This document shows, piece by piece, positions 8,525 through 27,761 of a DNA stretch of 36,426 nt. Made by a program: the position numbers and the translations under genes. Position 1 is the first letter of the stretch. Each line of letters starts with the position of its first letter. This DNA comes from Oscillatoriales cyanobacterium PMM_0019 (GTDB lineage Bacteria; Cyanobacteriota; Cyanobacteriia; Cyanobacteriales; CASBRB01): assembly GCA_949127975.1 (NCBI GenBank), contig CASBRB010000251.1, forward strand, positions 1 through 36,426, given 5' to 3'. The notes beneath the pieces are model-generated. The model ran no database searches, was not told the DNA's origin, and saw only the letters and a list, made by a program, of their open reading frames with translations.

Positions 8525-8615
8525 CAGGACTTACGCACACTGGGCATATATAGGGGCAACCACAGGGGGATTGCCCCTACGAACCGCTATATATAGAGGC
8601 AGTGCGTAAATCCTG
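8525..8615. repeat. Dispersed palindromic repeat family A, copy A4 (full length, 91 bp)
   Basis: Ends CAGGACTTACGCAC and GTGCGTAAATCCTG pair over the whole tip with one mismatch; the core is GGGGCAACCACAGGGGGATTGCCCC. The 9 bp GAACTGTAA sits directly on both sides (8516-8524 and 8616-8624). The direct repeat extends further left as GTAAATCCTGGAACTGTAA at 8506-8524. The right end is 18 bp from the stop of the convergent-side gene at 8634. Confidence 0.9.
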
Positions 8616-11018: not shown

Positions 11019-11071
11019 GCCACCGGAACGAGGATACCCTCAGGCGGGAGCCTGCTTACTCCCTTCCCACC

Positions 11072-11187
11072 TACTCCCTTCCCGCTCTAAGATTATGTAT
11101 TAAGCCAGCAATCTTCGAGCAATCTTCGAGCAATCTTCGAGCAATCTTCGAGTAGAAAATACAAAATCTTCTGGCGGGAAGGGAGTA
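11072..11187. repeat. Inverted-repeat element family B, copy B1
   Basis: A 116-bp element with perfect 14-bp terminal inverted repeats TACTCCCTTCCCGC (11072-11085) and GCGGGAAGGGAGTA (11174-11187). Inside are TAAGATTATGTATTAAGCC and four tandem copies of the 11-bp unit AGCAATCTTCG (11107-11150). A partial extra left end (TACTCCCTTCCCAC) precedes it at 11057. A reverse-oriented copy lies at 12739-12843 and a fragment at 21266-21293. No coding capacity. Confidence 0.85.
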
Positions 11188-12613: not shown

Positions 12614-12740
12614 GTGCGTTAATGAAATGTAACGCACCATCTATATGCTAATTTTCGGTGCGTTACGCTAACGCTAACACACCCTACACAATGCTACCAA
12701 TTAGTGCGTTAATGAAATGTAACGCACCATCTATATGCTA
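12614..12740. repeat. Direct repeat pair with internal palindromes (family D)
   Basis: The same 37-nt block occurs at 12614-12650 and 12704-12740. Each carries GTGCGTTA...TAACGCAC arms, and the stretch between them has further copies of GGTGCGTTACGC and CACACCCTACA. The last two bases of the second block are the first two of element B2. No coding content. Confidence 0.75.
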
Positions 12741-12843
12741 CTCCCTTCAGGCCAGAAGAATTTGTATTTTCTGCCTCCCCCAGCTCGAAGATTGCTCGAA
12801 GATTGCTGGCTTAATACATAATCTTAGAACACCGAAGGGAGTA
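12739..12843. repeat. Inverted-repeat element family B, copy B2 (reverse orientation)
   Basis: Ends TACTCCCTTC and GAAGGGAGTA. The inside is the reverse complement of B1 with only two copies of the 11-bp unit (read here as CGAAGATTGCT at 12785-12806), followed by GGCTTAATACATAATCTTA. It ends 39 bp before the rsmG start, so the rsmG leader includes it. Confidence 0.8.
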
Positions 12844-16665: not shown

Positions 16666-16989
16666 ATGAAGAAAACAACTGATGCCTTAGAAATTATCAA
16701 TAATCTAATTGGTCAAGATACTCAGATGCAGCAAATGGTAATTGAGTCTTATTTGAATGCAGAAGTCGGTCAATTGATTTATGATGCTCGTAACCAAGTA
16801 GGATTAACCCAACAACAATTAGCTGAAATGATTGGTGTAGAGCGATCTATTATTGATGACTTAGAAGCAGGTGACTACGAGGACAATGCTTTGATAATGC
16901 TTCAGAAAGTTACAGTTGTTTTCAAGCAACGAATCAAGATTGAGTTAATTTCAGATTATTCTGATCGAGCTATAAAAACAACAGCTTAA
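16666..16989 (+). CDS. HTH (XRE) domain protein, probable antitoxin
   Basis: A 107-residue protein. Residues about 1-35 are helical (KKTTDALEIINNLIGQDTQMQQMVIESYLNAE), followed by a Cro/C1-type helix-turn-helix at about 40-70: IYDARNQVGLTQQQLAEMIGVERSIIDDLEAGDY. The C-terminal strand VFKQRIKIELI resembles the antitoxin half of RelE/HigB-type pairs. A clear Shine-Dalgarno AAGGAGA (16651-16657) stands 8 nt before ATG. A toxin gene normally lies just upstream; here 85 nt upstream is the end of the Phd-like gene and no toxin is visible. A weak hairpin follows at 16990-17012. Confidence 0.75.
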   Translation: MKKTTDALEIINNLIGQDTQMQQMVIESYLNAEVGQLIYDARNQVGLTQQQLAEMIGVERSIIDDLEAGDYEDNALIMLQKVTVVFKQRIKIELISDYSDRAIKTTA

Positions 16990-17098: not shown

Positions 17099-20000
17099 AT
17101 GGATAATCGCTGGAAATTTTTTGCCGATCGCGGTGGCACGTTTACAGATATAGTAGCCATAACACCAGACGATCGAGTAATTATTCACAAGCTACTCTCA
17201 GAAAACCCGGAGCGTTATCAAGATGCTGTAATCCAAGGGATTCGGAATATCTTAGGGATTGCCAGTGACGCTCCTATCCCATCAGAACAAATAGAAGTTG
17301 TTAAGGTGGGGACGACAGTGGCAACAAATGCCTTATTGGAAAAAAAAGGCGATCGCACCGTCTTACTCATCACCAAAGGTTTCCGAGATGCCCTGCGTAT
17401 CGGCTATCAAAACCGCCCCGATATCTTCGCTCTGAAAATTGTACTGCCAGAACTCCTCTATGAGGAGATCGTAGAAGTAGAGGAACGCTACAACGCCAAA
17501 GGGGAAGAATTACTTCCCGTACAGCCAGGATATATCCCCTCTTTACAACAAGCATACCATGATGGGATTCGTAGCTGTGCTCTAGTATTCATGCACGGCT
17601 ATCTCTATCCAGAACACGAACAACAAGTAGCCAAGGTAGCGCGAGAAATTGGTTTTACTCAAATTTCAGTATCTCACCAAGTCAGCCCCTCGATCAAATT
17701 AGTCAGCCGAGGGGATACCACAGTAGTTGATGCTTATTTATCACCCATCCTGCGGCGCTATGTGGAAGAGGTGGCTTCCCAGCTAGGTGGAGTGCGCTTA
17801 ATGTTTATGCAATCTAGTGGCGGTTTAGTGGAAGCCCAACAGTTTAAAGGGCGAAACAGTATCTTATCGGGGCCTGCTGGTGGGATAGTCGGTGCAGTAC
17901 AAACCAGCAAGAGGGCTGGTTTTGACCGAATTATTACCTTTGATATGGGGGGAACTAGCACAGACGTTGCCCATTTTAAGGGCGAATACGAACGGCAATT
18001 TGAATCGGAAATTGCTGGAGTAAAAATGCTCTCGCCTCAGATGGCAATTCACACTGTAGCAGCAGGTGGCGGTTCGATTCTATTTTATGATGGTGCGCGT
18101 TATCGGGTTGGCCCAGAGTCAGCCGGAGCAAATCCCGGCCCTGCTTGTTATCGCAAAGGTGGCCCTTTAACGGTAACGGATGCCAATGTGATGATGGGCA
18201 AATTGCAGCCCGAGTATTTCCCTGCATTGTTTGGGTTAAATGCAGATTTACCTTTAGATGTAGAGGTGGTGCGGCAGAAATTTACTCAGTTAGCGGCGGA
18301 AATTGGCGATAATCGGACACTAGAACAGGTGGCGGCGGGATTTATCTCTATTGCTGTGGAAAATATGGCGAATGCGATTAAAAAAATCTCGCTGCAACGG
18401 GGTTATGACCTATCAGAATATACCCTATGCTGTTTTGGTGGCGCGGGAGGGCAGCACGCCTGTTTAATTGCTGACTCTTTGGGAATTAAGCAGATTTTTA
18501 TTCATCCTTTAGCTGGGGTGTTATCTGCTTATGGAATTGGGTTGGCGGATGTGCGAGTAATTAAAAAACGGTCAGTTGAAGCCGAGTTAACTCCTGAATT
18601 ACTGCTGGATATCCGGCATTTGATCGATCCTCTAGAGGCAGAGGCTATGTCTGAAATTAACAGCGAAGATGGTGTAGTAACAGTGTCGTACAAGGTAAAT
18701 TTGAAATATGCAGGAACTGATTCTGCTTTGACAGTTAACTTGGCTGACGCTCCAGACATGAGGAGGGAATTTGAGTCACAACACTCTACCCGCTATGGCT
18801 TTATTCAGGCGAAAAGCTCGTTAATTGTTGAATCAATTATCCTGGAACTGGTACAGGGAATGCACGCTCCTGCTGAACCGATAAAAAACCGTTTCCATGA
18901 TACCCCACCTACTGCTTGTGCCACAGTGCAAATCTACACTGCTGATAACTGGCATGATGCCCCGGTTTTTCAGCGAGATGACTTACAGCCGGGAGATTGT
19001 ATTATTGGCCCAGCCTTGATTATCGAACAGACTGGCACTAACGTCATCGAACCAGGTTGGCAAGCAGAATTGACAAACCACAATCATCTGATTTTACGGC
19101 ATTGTTTAAGTAGAACAGGACTTACGCACACTGGCACACTGGGCACACACAGGGGGATTGCCCCTACGAACCCACTATATATAGAAGCAGAAATGTTGAC
19201 TAACTGCGACTCTCAACCAGATCCAGTGCGGCTGGAAATCTTTAAAAATTTCTTCCAATTTATTGCCGAAGAAATGGGAATTGCTTTGCAAAATACCGCA
19301 GCTTCAGTGAATATTAAAGAGCGGCTTGATTTCAGTTGCGCTATCTTCGATCGCTTGGGTAATTTAGTCGCCAACGCACCTCATATCCCTGTACACTTGG
19401 GTAGTATGAGCGAAAGCATCCGCAGTTTAATTAGCGATCGCGCTGGCACCATTCAACCAGGAGATGTATATATATCGAATAACCCCTACAATGGAGGAAC
19501 ACACCTACCTGACGTTACCGTAATCACCCCAGTTTTTGATGAAGCTGACGAACAAATTCTTTTTTACGTTGCTTCTCGCGGACACCAAGCAGACATCGGC
19601 GGAATTGCCCCCGGTTCTATGCCTCCCAATAGTACCACCCTGGAAGAAGAAGGTATTTTGCTGGATAATTTCCAACTGGTTTACCAGAATCAGTTCCGGG
19701 AAAAAGAACTGCGGGAACTCCTATCAAGTAGTGCTTATCCTGCCCGTAATATCGACCAAAATCTCCAAGACTTCAAAGCCCAAATTGCTGCTAATGCCAA
19801 GGGAATGCAAGAACTACATAAAATGGTAGCCCAATATGGACTTTTAACAGTTCAAGCTTATATGGCTCACGTACAGGATAACGCGGAAGAGGCAGTTCGT
19901 CGCGCTATTGCTGTATTGAGCAATGGGGAATTTACTTACCCAATGGATGGGGGAGGAGTAATTAAAGTAGCAATTACCATCCATCGCGCCAACCGTAGCG

Positions 20001-20749
20001 CTAGAATTGATTTTACCGGGACTTCCCAACAATTGACCAGCAATTTTAACGCGCCTAAAGCAGTCTGCCAAGCTGCCGTACTTTACGTTTTCAGAACTTT
20101 AGTTTCTGACAATATCCCCCTGAATGCTGGTTGCCTTAAGCCTTTGGAAATTATTATTCCTGAAGGTTCGATGTTAAATCCTCGTTACCCGGCGGCTGTG
20201 GTGGCGGGTAATGTTGAGACTTCTCAGGCGATAGTAGATGCTTTATATGGGGCACTGGGGGTGATGGCAGCTTCTCAGGGAACGATGAATAATTTCACAT
20301 TCGGGAACTCGCGCTACCAATATTATGAGACGATCGCAGGTGGTTCGGGAGCGGGAGCAACTTGGGATGGTACAACAGCCGTTCAGACGCACATGACTAA
20401 CTCCAGACTAACCGACCCCGAAGTGCTGGAGGGACGATTCCCAGTTTTGCTAGAAGAATTTAAAATTCGTCACGGTAGTGGTGGAGCGGGGTTGCATCAA
20501 GGTGGGAATGGGGTTATCCGTCGCATCCGTTTCCTCGAACCGATGACGGCAGCAATTTTATCAAATCATCGTGTTATTCCTCCTTTTGGATTGAACGGCG
20601 GTAGTGTGGCGGCTGTTGGGAAAAACTATGTTCAGCGTGGCGATGGAAGTGTAGAGGAATTAGGCAGCACTGCTGTCGTGCAAATGCAACCTGGCGATGT
20701 GTTTGTAATTGAAACACCTGGGGGAGGGGGCTTTGGCTTAGAGCGATGA
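17099..20749 (+). CDS. Fused hydantoinase A-B / 5-oxoprolinase
   Basis: ATP-dependent hydrolysis of 5-oxo-L-proline to glutamate, or of a hydantoin, by a single polypeptide as in OPLAH-type enzymes (1216 residues against roughly 1290). The HyuA half (1 to about 670) starts FADRGGTFTDIVA and has KVGTTVATNALLEKKGDRT, SGPAGGIVGA and TFDMGGTSTDVA. The HyuB half (about 705 to 1216) has AASVNIKERLDFSCAIFD, NNPYNGGTHLPDV (from about 794), SRGHQADIGG and the C-terminal TPGGGGFG. The residues between them, about 673-697, are encoded by a dispersed family A repeat (19116-19190) that is open in this frame. The substrate is inferred. A nearby YcsI-like gene fits pyroglutamate metabolism. Confidence 0.92.
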   Translation: MDNRWKFFADRGGTFTDIVAITPDDRVIIHKLLSENPERYQDAVIQGIRNILGIASDAPIPSEQIEVVKVGTTVATNALLEKKGDRTVLLITKGFRDALRIGYQNRPDIFALKIVLPELLYEEIVEVEERYNAKGEELLPVQPGYIPSLQQAYHDGIRSCALVFMHGYLYPEHEQQVAKVAREIGFTQISVSHQVSPSIKLVSRGDTTVVDAYLSPILRRYVEEVASQLGGVRLMFMQSSGGLVEAQQFKGRNSILSGPAGGIVGAVQTSKRAGFDRIITFDMGGTSTDVAHFKGEYERQFESEIAGVKMLSPQMAIHTVAAGGGSILFYDGARYRVGPESAGANPGPACYRKGGPLTVTDANVMMGKLQPEYFPALFGLNADLPLDVEVVRQKFTQLAAEIGDNRTLEQVAAGFISIAVENMANAIKKISLQRGYDLSEYTLCCFGGAGGQHACLIADSLGIKQIFIHPLAGVLSAYGIGLADVRVIKKRSVEAELTPELLLDIRHLIDPLEAEAMSEINSEDGVVTVSYKVNLKYAGTDSALTVNLADAPDMRREFESQHSTRYGFIQAKSSLIVESIILELVQGMHAPAEPIKNRFHDTPPTACATVQIYTADNWHDAPVFQRDDLQPGDCIIGPALIIEQTGTNVIEPGWQAELTNHNHLILRHCLSRTGLTHTGTLGTHRGIAPTNPLYIEAEMLTNCDSQPDPVRLEIFKNFFQFIAEEMGIALQNTAASVNIKERLDFSCAIFDRLGNLVANAPHIPVHLGSMSESIRSLISDRAGTIQPGDVYISNNPYNGGTHLPDVTVITPVFDEADEQILFYVASRGHQADIGGIAPGSMPPNSTTLEEEGILLDNFQLVYQNQFREKELRELLSSSAYPARNIDQNLQDFKAQIAANAKGMQELHKMVAQYGLLTVQAYMAHVQDNAEEAVRRAIAVLSNGEFTYPMDGGGVIKVAITIHRANRSARIDFTGTSQQLTSNFNAPKAVCQAAVLYVFRTLVSDNIPLNAGCLKPLEIIIPEGSMLNPRYPAAVVAGNVETSQAIVDALYGALGVMAASQGTMNNFTFGNSRYQYYETIAGGSGAGATWDGTTAVQTHMTNSRLTDPEVLEGRFPVLLEEFKIRHGSGGAGLHQGGNGVIRRIRFLEPMTAAILSNHRVIPPFGLNGGSVAAVGKNYVQRGDGSVEELGSTAVVQMQPGDVFVIETPGGGGFGLER
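19116..19190 (+). repeat. Dispersed palindromic repeat family A, copy A5, inside the 5-oxoprolinase gene
   Basis: Starts with the full family end CAGGACTTACGCACACTGG, continues through CAGGGGGATTGCCCCTACGAACC and ends at TATATATAGAAGCAG. The right terminal repeat has decayed. It is read as TGLTHTGTLGTHRGIAPTNP and then LYIEAE at the junction between the HyuA and HyuB halves, with no stop or frameshift. Confidence 0.9.
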
Positions 20750-21293: not shown

Positions 21294-21316
21294 TAAAGAA
21301 ATCGGTTTTTTTGATG

Positions 21317-21466
21317 TCAGGCTGGTAGCGGTTCGACCAATTGTTCAACGTTCGCTGAAAGTAGTTGCGTAATTTTCTGACGTGCGTTAAGTCCCGTCAA
21401 TGAAATATCGGCATAAGCTAAAAATAGCAGGTTGTGAACCTTCTGCATTTCCTCTAGGGCACGGGC
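21317..21466 (-). pseudogene. 3' fragment of an unrecognised gene, copy 1
   Basis: On the minus strand an open stretch of 49 codons reads ARALEEMQKVHNLLFLAYAD and then ISLTGLNARQKITQLLSANV before a proper stop. It is preceded in frame by a TGA and has no start codon near its beginning. It looks like the C-terminus of a lost gene. A diverged copy lies at 22535-22656. The family is not recognised. Positions 21480-21637 show no gene. Confidence 0.55.
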
Positions 21467-21637: not shown

Positions 21638-21728
21638 CAGGACTTACGCACTTCCTCTATATATAGCGGTTCGTAGGGGCAATCCCCCTGTGGTTGCCCC
21701 TATATATGCCCAGTCTGCGTAAGTCCTG
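21638..21728. repeat. Dispersed palindromic repeat family A, copy A6 (full length, 91 bp, inverted)
   Basis: Perfect terminal inverted repeats CAGGACTTACGCA and TGCGTAAGTCCTG. The core is in the opposite orientation from most copies. AGGAG sits immediately on each side (21633-21637 and 21729-21733), a possible 5-bp target duplication. The length equals that of A4. Confidence 0.9.
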
Positions 21729-21865
21729 AGGAGCTTGAATCCATAACGGGGAGGTGATGTGAGTTGTAGCACCGCTAGTTTCTATGAATGTACAACCTAC
21801 CTTATCGGGATACGAGTTCGTACCGATGCAACGTTTTCAACTTTAACTATGAGGATGAAAAACTG

Positions 21866-22372
21866 ATGAAATCTACAACTGTAATCTTATTAGGACTATT
21901 AGTTGGATTTTCCAGCATTAAACCTGTAGAAGCTACCTCTGTAGCAGCTACCAGAGCCATAGTAACTCAAACAGATACAGCTAAACACCCTAATTCATCA
22001 TTTACCATAGCACAGTTCAGTAGACCTAACAGCGGTCTTTACGGCTTATGGCAACTTACTTACAGCGTTGATGGGCTTCTTTATGAAAGCCGGCTTTACA
22101 TGAATGGCTATTCAGGAATAATGAGAACTCGCTATTTCGATCCAAGAATAAATCAGACTCAAGTTGTAGATCAAACAATGCGTTTAAGATCTTCTTCACA
22201 AGGATTAGTTTTGTTAGGATATAACCCAGTTTATGCTGGAACTAATATCCCACATCCTACCTACAGTGCAGACAACTTTCTGTTTCAAATCAGACCTAAT
22301 GGTTCGCTAGTAGTTGTGACTTGCGATCGTGACCGTCGTTGTTCAAATGTAGATATGCAGAAACTTCGCTAG
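21866..22372 (+). CDS. Predicted secreted hypothetical protein
   Basis: A 168-residue protein starting MKSTTVILLGLLVGFSSIKPVEA, a signal peptide with probable cleavage after VEA. The mature part is beta-rich (SGLYGLWQLTYSVDGLLYESRLYMNG; NFLFQIRPNGSLVVVTCDR) and has two Cys near the C-terminus (CDRDRRC) that may form a disulfide. No family recognised. ATG at 21866 is preferred because it begins the signal peptide and has GAGGA 10 nt upstream; the longer frame from 21788 has no signal character. The gene lies alone between repeats; its function is unknown. Confidence 0.7.
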   Translation: MKSTTVILLGLLVGFSSIKPVEATSVAATRAIVTQTDTAKHPNSSFTIAQFSRPNSGLYGLWQLTYSVDGLLYESRLYMNGYSGIMRTRYFDPRINQTQVVDQTMRLRSSSQGLVLLGYNPVYAGTNIPHPTYSADNFLFQIRPNGSLVVVTCDRDRRCSNVDMQKLR

Positions 22373-22528: not shown

Positions 22529-22534
22529 TTGATG

Positions 22535-22656
22535 TCAGACTGGTAGCGGATCGACCAATTGTTCAACGATCGCTGAAAATAGTTGCACAATTTTCTAACG
22601 TGCGTTAAGTCCCATCAATAAAATATCGGTATAAGCTAAAAATAGCAGGTTGTGAA
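22535..22656 (-). pseudogene. 3' fragment of an unrecognised gene, copy 2
   Basis: Aligns with 21317-21438 base for base apart from scattered substitutions. The frame now has an internal stop (NAR-stop-KIVQLF), so it decays separately from copy 1. Homology ends at about 22656, where the HIP1-like AGCGATCG begins. The remaining 22657-22730 is the leader of the next gene. Confidence 0.6.
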
Positions 22657-27619: not shown

Positions 27620-27761
27620 GGGACTTACGCAGACTAGGCATATATAGGGGCAACCACAGGGGGATTGCCCCTACGAACCGTTATATTGGGCACATATAGC
27701 GGCAACAACAGGGGGATTGCCCCTACTAACCGCTATATATAGAGGCTGTGCGTAAGTCCTG
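27620..27761. repeat. Dispersed palindromic repeat family A, copy A9 (tandem core)
   Basis: Full outer ends GGGACTTACGCAGACTAGG and GTGCGTAAGTCCTG enclose two cores in a row, joined at TTATATTGGGCACATATAG. A HIP1 site follows at once. The end lies 28 bp from the stop of the gene at 27789. Confidence 0.85.

Follow-up and report, generated by a model that had tools for sequence, protein, structure and literature searches.

A remnant of an abundant ~90-bp MITE is read in frame in the HyuA-HyuB linker of a predicted cyanobacterial 5-oxoprolinase

Introduction

Nezha and the MITEs of Anabaena PCC 7120 are short cyanobacterial elements with terminal inverted repeats and many copies, and the STRR of cyanobacteria are tandem repeats of seven bases. 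REPs, to our knowledge, are without 5-bp target duplications of the MITE kind. The in-frame insertion of palindromic or MITE-like repeats into genes is established, as documented in the available parts of reports on the Rickettsia RPE and other MITE fusions (PMC10969869, PMC2229807). In the same partial sources, nearly half of RPEs are said to lie within ORFs (PMC10969869), and the copies in genes are said to occupy non-structured segments (PMC2996958). ERIC, RU-1 and other enterobacterial MITEs are described, in the portion of the source at hand, as having open frames and in-frame fusions to protein genes (PMC2229807). According to the accessible sections of another report, GTAG/CGTC-tagged REPs, 20-40 bp in length, are palindromic repeats found within ORFs, GTAG repeats are known in cyanobacteria, and flexible linkers or loops are proposed as neutral insertion sites (PMC3733652). 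Of the 147 MITEs of Anabaena sp. 90, 15 are reported to lie in disrupted ORFs and to be tied to pseudogenes (PMC3542288).

Here, we analyzed a stretch of 36,426 nucleotides (hereafter the window) from the genome of Oscillatoriales cyanobacterium PMM_0019 (5.74 Mb in 512 contigs), in which a MITE remnant lies within a predicted 5-oxoprolinase gene. As in the RPE case, a short dispersed element sits in frame inside a conserved enzyme gene. However, the host differs and the likeness is drawn from descriptions of the elements; the window MITE is depleted in ORFs, with 3 of 133 copies in large conserved ones, as against the nearly half of RPEs placed in ORFs by the partial source; and the gene copy has lost its hairpin (z -0.48). 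Among the traits of RPE, the in-frame position in a conserved gene was found here, while a palindromic form of the gene copy and frequent occurrence in ORFs with frames kept open were not. The resemblance to Nezha and the PCC 7120 MITEs is likewise drawn from descriptions, and, unlike the MITE-disrupted ORFs of Anabaena sp. 90, the window gene stays open. ERIC and RU-1 are different elements in different hosts, and the emphasis in the available text is on new fusions or fusions at ends, whereas that of the window is internal to a large enzyme. The core of the window MITE contains, on the opposite strand, GTAGGGGCAA, which recalls the GTAG REPs in a comparison made apart from REP consensus sequences, but the element measures ~90 bp and not the 20-40 bp given for REPs in the accessible sections. 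Among the literature matches listed, no paper concerned repeats, an insertion or a linker in 5-oxoprolinase; for the ends of this element, none of the listed matches dealt with these ends and none with cyanobacteria.

Results

The gene at 17099..20749 (+ strand) encodes 1216 aa with zero internal stops. Its HyuA part (17099..19102, +; Pfam Hydant_A_N, Hydantoinase_A and Hydant_A_C) runs until aa 668, where Hydant_A_C ends, and its HyuB part (19220..20746, +; Pfam Hydantoinase_B, aa 708-1213) begins at aa 708 and reaches the end of the ORF. With both Pfam halves in a single chain, the product is by its domains a fused 5-oxoprolinase of predicted activity, and it is probably made as one chain. 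We refer to this protein as P0001 and use its residue numbering across orthologues.

A MITE remnant of 75 bp occupies 19116..19190 (+) between the two parts. It begins with the left 13-bp terminal inverted repeat CAGGACTTACGCA (19116..19128, +), which is preceded by TAGAA, carries the core GGGGNTTGCCCCTACNNACC (19153..19172, +) and ends ...GAAGCAG; the right terminal repeat is absent, and no second TAGAA follows. An earlier note on this DNA, in which the remnant is copy A5, had read it as lying in frame at the HyuA-HyuB junction, adding about 25 residues and free of stops in the gene's frame. Our analysis bears this out: the 1216-aa ORF is open, the length of 75 bp preserves the reading frame, and the remnant codes for aa 673-697 (TGLTHTGTLGTHRGIAPTNPLYIEA; codons at 19115..19189, +), between the domains and in the frame of both halves, without a stop. 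The rest of the linker, 3' of the remnant (19191..19219, +), holds GAAATGTTGACTAA.

Compared with its own genome, the 3651-bp gene matched itself and at least 59 other places, the best of them at 96-97% identity (40 of 605 candidates scored). All 59 listed places map to query bases 2003-2092, an interval made up of the repeat (2018-2092) and, in front of it, no more than 15 bases; none is identical to the gene copy. The rest of the gene, taken as an internal control, had no match elsewhere in the genome among the 40 of 605 candidates scored. The gene segment is a repeat copy, far from a chance likeness.

The core occurs at 457 exact places in the genome (226+231), and the pattern of left end plus core at 142; reversed-pattern controls gave 0 in both cases. 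Aligned copies place the ends of the element at CAGGACTTACGCA and TGCGTAAGTCCTG. In sampled own-genome DNA, which comprised the window, 40 stretches from contigs C1-C73 and a further 38 that surround the best gene matches, we found 51 elements with both 13-bp ends (at most two mismatches each) and the core. Their length was 88-92 bp in 46 of 51, and a 5-bp flanking duplication was exact in 28, had one mismatch in 7 and at least two in 16. When left and right flanks were paired at random, 0.5% of the pairs were identical, and duplications of any other size between 2 and 9 bp were seen in at most 4 of the 51. On the basis of its 13-bp terminal inverted repeats, 5-bp target duplications and size, the repeat family is a ~90-bp MITE, a non-autonomous transposon. 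A search of the sampled own-genome DNA for elements of 0.5-3 kb that share these ends, have an exact 5-bp duplication and offer room for a transposase found none, and an Rfam scan of the window gave zero matches at the gathering score.

Three fuller copies fold as strong hairpins (z -4.46, -6.55 and -5.05). The last value belongs to a full 91-bp copy at 8525..8615 (+), which has both terminal repeats and lies outside ORFs, as do a copy at 21638..21728 (-), 97% complementary to 8525-8615, and one at 27687..27761 (+), which adjoins another at 27621-27686. At 1337-1572, several copies of the core of this family (family A of the earlier note) overlap or are closely spaced. Across genomes, the MITE is matched at E <=0.001 in at least 28 of 148 genomes, the window's own included (6 candidates per genome scored). 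The best match outside the own genome among those scored, in G097, reached 87% over 61 bp, and most others were short and core-only. G097 and G095 are the best MITE-matching genomes, and the linkers of their orthologues (L181 and L216, respectively) lack the MITE.

The window also holds repeats of other kinds. A perfect 46-nt inverted pair (11086-11131 / 12783-12828) with further arms, within 11071-11187 and 12738-12828, encloses ~1.65 kb and may represent the ends of an insertion element. Identical 37-bp direct repeats (GTGCGTTAATGAAATGTAACGCACCATCTATATGCTA) lie 90 bp apart at 12614-12650 and 12704-12740, and a 128-bp direct repeat at 21311-21438 and 22529-22656, 92% identical, flanks the ORF at 21788-22372.

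The gene copy itself is no longer palindromic, and this part of the earlier description has to be given up: its folding is no better than that of its own shuffles, and its right terminal repeat is gone. With the right end missing and no hairpin, this copy is truncated and has probably lost its mobility. It has the left end only, with no visible 5-bp target duplication. Insertion is not proven by the termini of this copy, which has neither the right terminal repeat nor a second target duplication. We also considered whether GAAATGTTGACTAA, which is the start of the post-repeat linker plus one repeat base, could prove the presence of an older linker, and rejected it in that role. As it is common to one other linker (L178), as the sister linker L203 keeps 8 nt of it and as shuffled tails reach up to 16 nt (mean 8.5, 300 trials), it offers at most a faint hint of the old linker.

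The earlier note had proposed that residues 673-697 should be missing from aligned relatives, and the MITE-derived residues are present in 0 of 109 orthologue rows (L010-L118, of which L040 is HyuA only and some are near-identical to each other). The span between two conserved blocks measures 46 residues in 57 of 59 non-cyanobacterial rows, 47 to 76 in cyanobacterial-side rows except L040, and 71 in the window protein. The nearest of the compared genomes belong to the same order as the source, none to its genus or family; because the searched genomes come at closest from this order, the empty site is unseen and the net gain of 75 bp is a deduction.

An AlphaFold2 model of aa 480-1216 (32 aligned sequences, mean pLDDT 81.4) has three segments with pLDDT <50. 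The longest, fragment residues 192-225, corresponds to aa 671-704, the repeat-bearing linker that includes all MITE-derived codons, and this linker is predicted to be disordered. In PDB 6yra_A/B, the two halves, named 5-oxoprolinase and hydantoinase, are on separate chains; in PDB 7hk5, an N-methylhydantoinase, both are on one chain. The predicted disorder, together with the separate chains of 6yra, suggests that the linker is a tether, in which extra length would be easily borne. The residues might instead have been domesticated as a spacer that aids the geometry, regulation or stability of the enzyme. The linker is indeed longer than most, at 40 aa against a median of 23 aa among 101 fused cyanobacterial-side linkers (the window's included), 10 of which reach at least 40 aa, and long repeat-derived linkers occur in several lineages. 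However, neither sequence nor length of the linker is evidently conserved among cyanobacterial orthologues, the segment is predicted to be disordered, and the copy is still ~96% like the others, so that selection on it is hardly apparent. We therefore regard domestication as highly improbable.

The history of the fusion bears on a second alternative, raised in the earlier note, in which hyuA and hyuB were once two genes with the repeat lying between them, and read-through of the repeat let them fuse. Among 110 cyanobacterial-side loci, in a count that mostly left out genomes with HyuA and HyuB far apart, 100 are fused, 9 consist of adjacent separate genes, and one is a stretch in which HyuA alone was found. 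A phylogeny of 119 rows groups the nine split forms in a single clade (support 100) nested among fused forms, and fused versus the rest requires two changes. Proteobacteria, methanogens, a Binatota MAG and an Obscuribacterales row are among the fused, although the outgroup rows were taken from full-length matches and are hence fused by choice. The clade to which P0001 itself belongs has 15 rows, the others being all nine split forms and five that are fused. Such proximity, and the fact that a spacer in a split genome can hold repeats (that of L162 carries GGACTTTAGTCC repeats of a kind seen in the linker of L013), would suit fusion by read-through. In contrast, the split forms are a clade of their own, and the five other rows of the P0001 clade, the other cyanobacterial rows and the outgroups are fused, so that P0001 has by parsimony always been fused; re-fusion in its lineage would be the costlier history and is unlikely. 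Fusion by the repeat, which demands additional changes, lacks support and appears very unlikely. The other route named in the earlier note, entry into the linker of a fusion that already existed, agrees with both the absence of the repeat from the 109 rows and the nested position of the split clade, and is the most likely course on this phylogeny. Among the split loci, L157 (G128) stands out with ~2.1 kb between HyuA and HyuB, exceeding the others.

An assembly artefact in the form of a misjoined repeat copy, or a pseudogene, is barely credible: the assembly is fragmented into 512 contigs and rich in the MITE, but the flanks belong to one gene in one frame with 1216 aa and all four Pfam domains, a misjoin would need in-frame joining of two halves of one gene, and none of the 59 listed other places is identical to the gene copy.

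How often the MITE enters coding sequence was assessed in 557,553 bp of own-genome DNA, namely the window and 40 contig stretches picked for holding listed cores, which contained 133 copies. Ten of these lie wholly and 11 partly within ORFs of at least 100 aa, with ~107 expected at the ORF cover of 80.4%; the MITE is strongly depleted in ORFs. The three copies in large conserved ORFs, in the 5-oxoprolinase linker and at two NRPS sites, are all interdomain. One NRPS (L149, 177-3596, -; 1140 aa) has a full copy at 2005-2095 with the target duplication TTGCA on both sides, between a condensation domain (to aa 486) and an AMP-binding domain (from aa 537), read in the same frame as the window gene copy. 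The hairpin predicted for this NRPS copy has -44 kcal/mol. The second NRPS (L254, 16340-19981, -) carries a right-truncated copy at 16905-16971, between a methyltransferase domain and a carrier domain, in a reading frame different from the window's. The earlier statement that the repeat is intergenic elsewhere therefore stands for the window, where none of the other 10 copies lies within an ORF of at least 100 aa, and falls genome-wide with the two NRPS copies.

The repeat had also been called a protein-building insertion. We examined the 306 frames of the 51 full copies: 53 are open, against 26% in simple shuffles, and 20 are readable, meaning both open and of frame-preserving length. The '+1' frame, that of the window gene and the L149 NRPS, accounts for ten of the 20. 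An element built for readability was accordingly rejected, open frames being no commoner than in shuffles, and together with the ORF depletion this speaks against a protein-building nature of the MITE. Such a distribution is in keeping with purifying selection, which would spare the rare readable copy at a tolerant site.

We then compared linkers of other cyanobacterial 5-oxoprolinases with their own genomes, each with 300 bp of flanking gene per side as control; four were picked by eye (G054, G086, G075, G089) and three drawn at random (G125, G109, G049). Dispersed repeats unrelated to the MITE were found in five of the seven. G054 gave 62 match rows, all in query 308-381 (linker 301-387), one of them the gene's own inverted match, with palindromic places counted on both strands. 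G086 gave 33 rows within 284-363 (linker 301-375), and G089 gave 51 within 297-475 (linker 301-513), covering two distinct repeats and including one self-match. The 20 rows of G075, with some places counted on both strands, fall in two linker stretches and one upstream HyuA stretch, and include three self-matches among the copies. Among the random linkers, one of three held a repeat, in few copies (G125, two rows at 428-466, inside the linker). In G109, whose linker spans 301-369, nine rows fell at 209-290, within the loop that immediately precedes it, and a tenth, at 367-401, was weak and lay at the linker's end and beyond; G049 had a single weak row at 277-317, spanning the linker start (linker 301-366). 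The low copy number in G125, the empty linker proper of G109 and the weak match of G049 count against a general hot spot in this random draw.

Tandem arrays overlap 30 of the 101 linkers. With overlapping reports of one array entered separately, 43 arrays fall in 8,205 bp of linker and 142 in the other 369,942 bp, a ~14-fold difference; 26 of the 43 have period 7, which likens the linker arrays of these relatives to STRR, whereas the window element is not an STRR. Outside linkers, arrays cluster at P0001 residues 220-239 (21 genes), 520-539 (19) and 820-839 (15). Insertions of at least 8 aa occur at residues 232-233, 523-528 and 814-820 in 44, 24 and 22 of 100 sequences, respectively, the largest counted at 523-528 in any row being 249 aa. 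Like peptides were seen near residue 232 and in the linker (NPKSKIQN in L029, NYQLPITNYQLP in L202). In genus g33, a repeat VGAGS...EPA(L/P)T lies, whole or in part, at residue 613 in L195 and L212-L215 and at residue 661 in L192, where the likeness to the other g33 copies was judged on translation; the linker of L213 holds two related copies. As further observations, L166 (G039) has a very long HyuA insertion at residues 523-528 made of ~45-bp tandem units (PPDLGDLGGASHQAPPTPQPWGEKNQQAT-like), and in L045 about seven 18-bp units at residues 814-820 give GNPGGR repeats in a HyuB loop.

Discussion

Our analysis indicates that a ~90-bp MITE very probably inserted into an existing, flexible and hypervariable HyuA-HyuB linker, adding ~25 codons, most likely without effect on fitness. 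That the linker belonged to an existing fusion is well supported. In the course of events that we infer, a copy of this abundant MITE would have inserted into the linker of an already fused 5-oxoprolinase; ~75 bp (25 codons) would have been gained either in this step alone or in this step together with small deletions in which the right terminal repeat was lost. A full element that later lost its right end and a truncated element that inserted as such are both possible routes. The outcome would be an open frame with a truncated copy that lacks the long hairpin. The added residues would be tolerated because the segment is an unstructured tether joining parts that are separate in some other organisms, and they are most likely neutral. 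As a single event, this insertion is a further instance of the known in-frame capture of repeats; what is new is the element, the host and the possible role of one enzyme as a recurrent sink.

With respect to the latter, we consider it somewhat more probable than its opposite that cyanobacterial 5-oxoprolinase has absorbed unrelated repeats, dispersed and tandem, in frame many times at about five fixed places, namely P0001 residues 232, 523-528, 613, 661-707 and 814-820. On balance, the repeats also seem to come from each lineage's own genome, a single repeat at times occupying two or three places within one enzyme or genus. The window gene's linker would then be one member of this series of events. 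Recurrent occupation of the same positions in a single enzyme, each time by other repeats, is the aspect most worth following. In-frame capture tends to be reported one element at a time. The same linker and loops, filled differently by lineage in 100 fused cyanobacterial-side sequences (a few of them near-identical), amount to a replicated natural experiment, in which the growth of linkers via selfish DNA can be tested, as can the extent of insertion that an enzyme bears and the positions at which it does so. It can likewise be tested whether hairpin loss favours the survival of coding copies; the right end is absent from two of the three found here.

What the gene copy reveals is a site at which selfish DNA can be taken up by a protein, not a route by which new proteins are built. 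It is also a warning that linkers of cyanobacterial proteins may be repeat-derived without having a conserved function. If the sink proves general, repeats would map the tolerant loops of enzymes, and the interdomain linkers of cyanobacterial enzymes would grow by the capture of mobile repeats.
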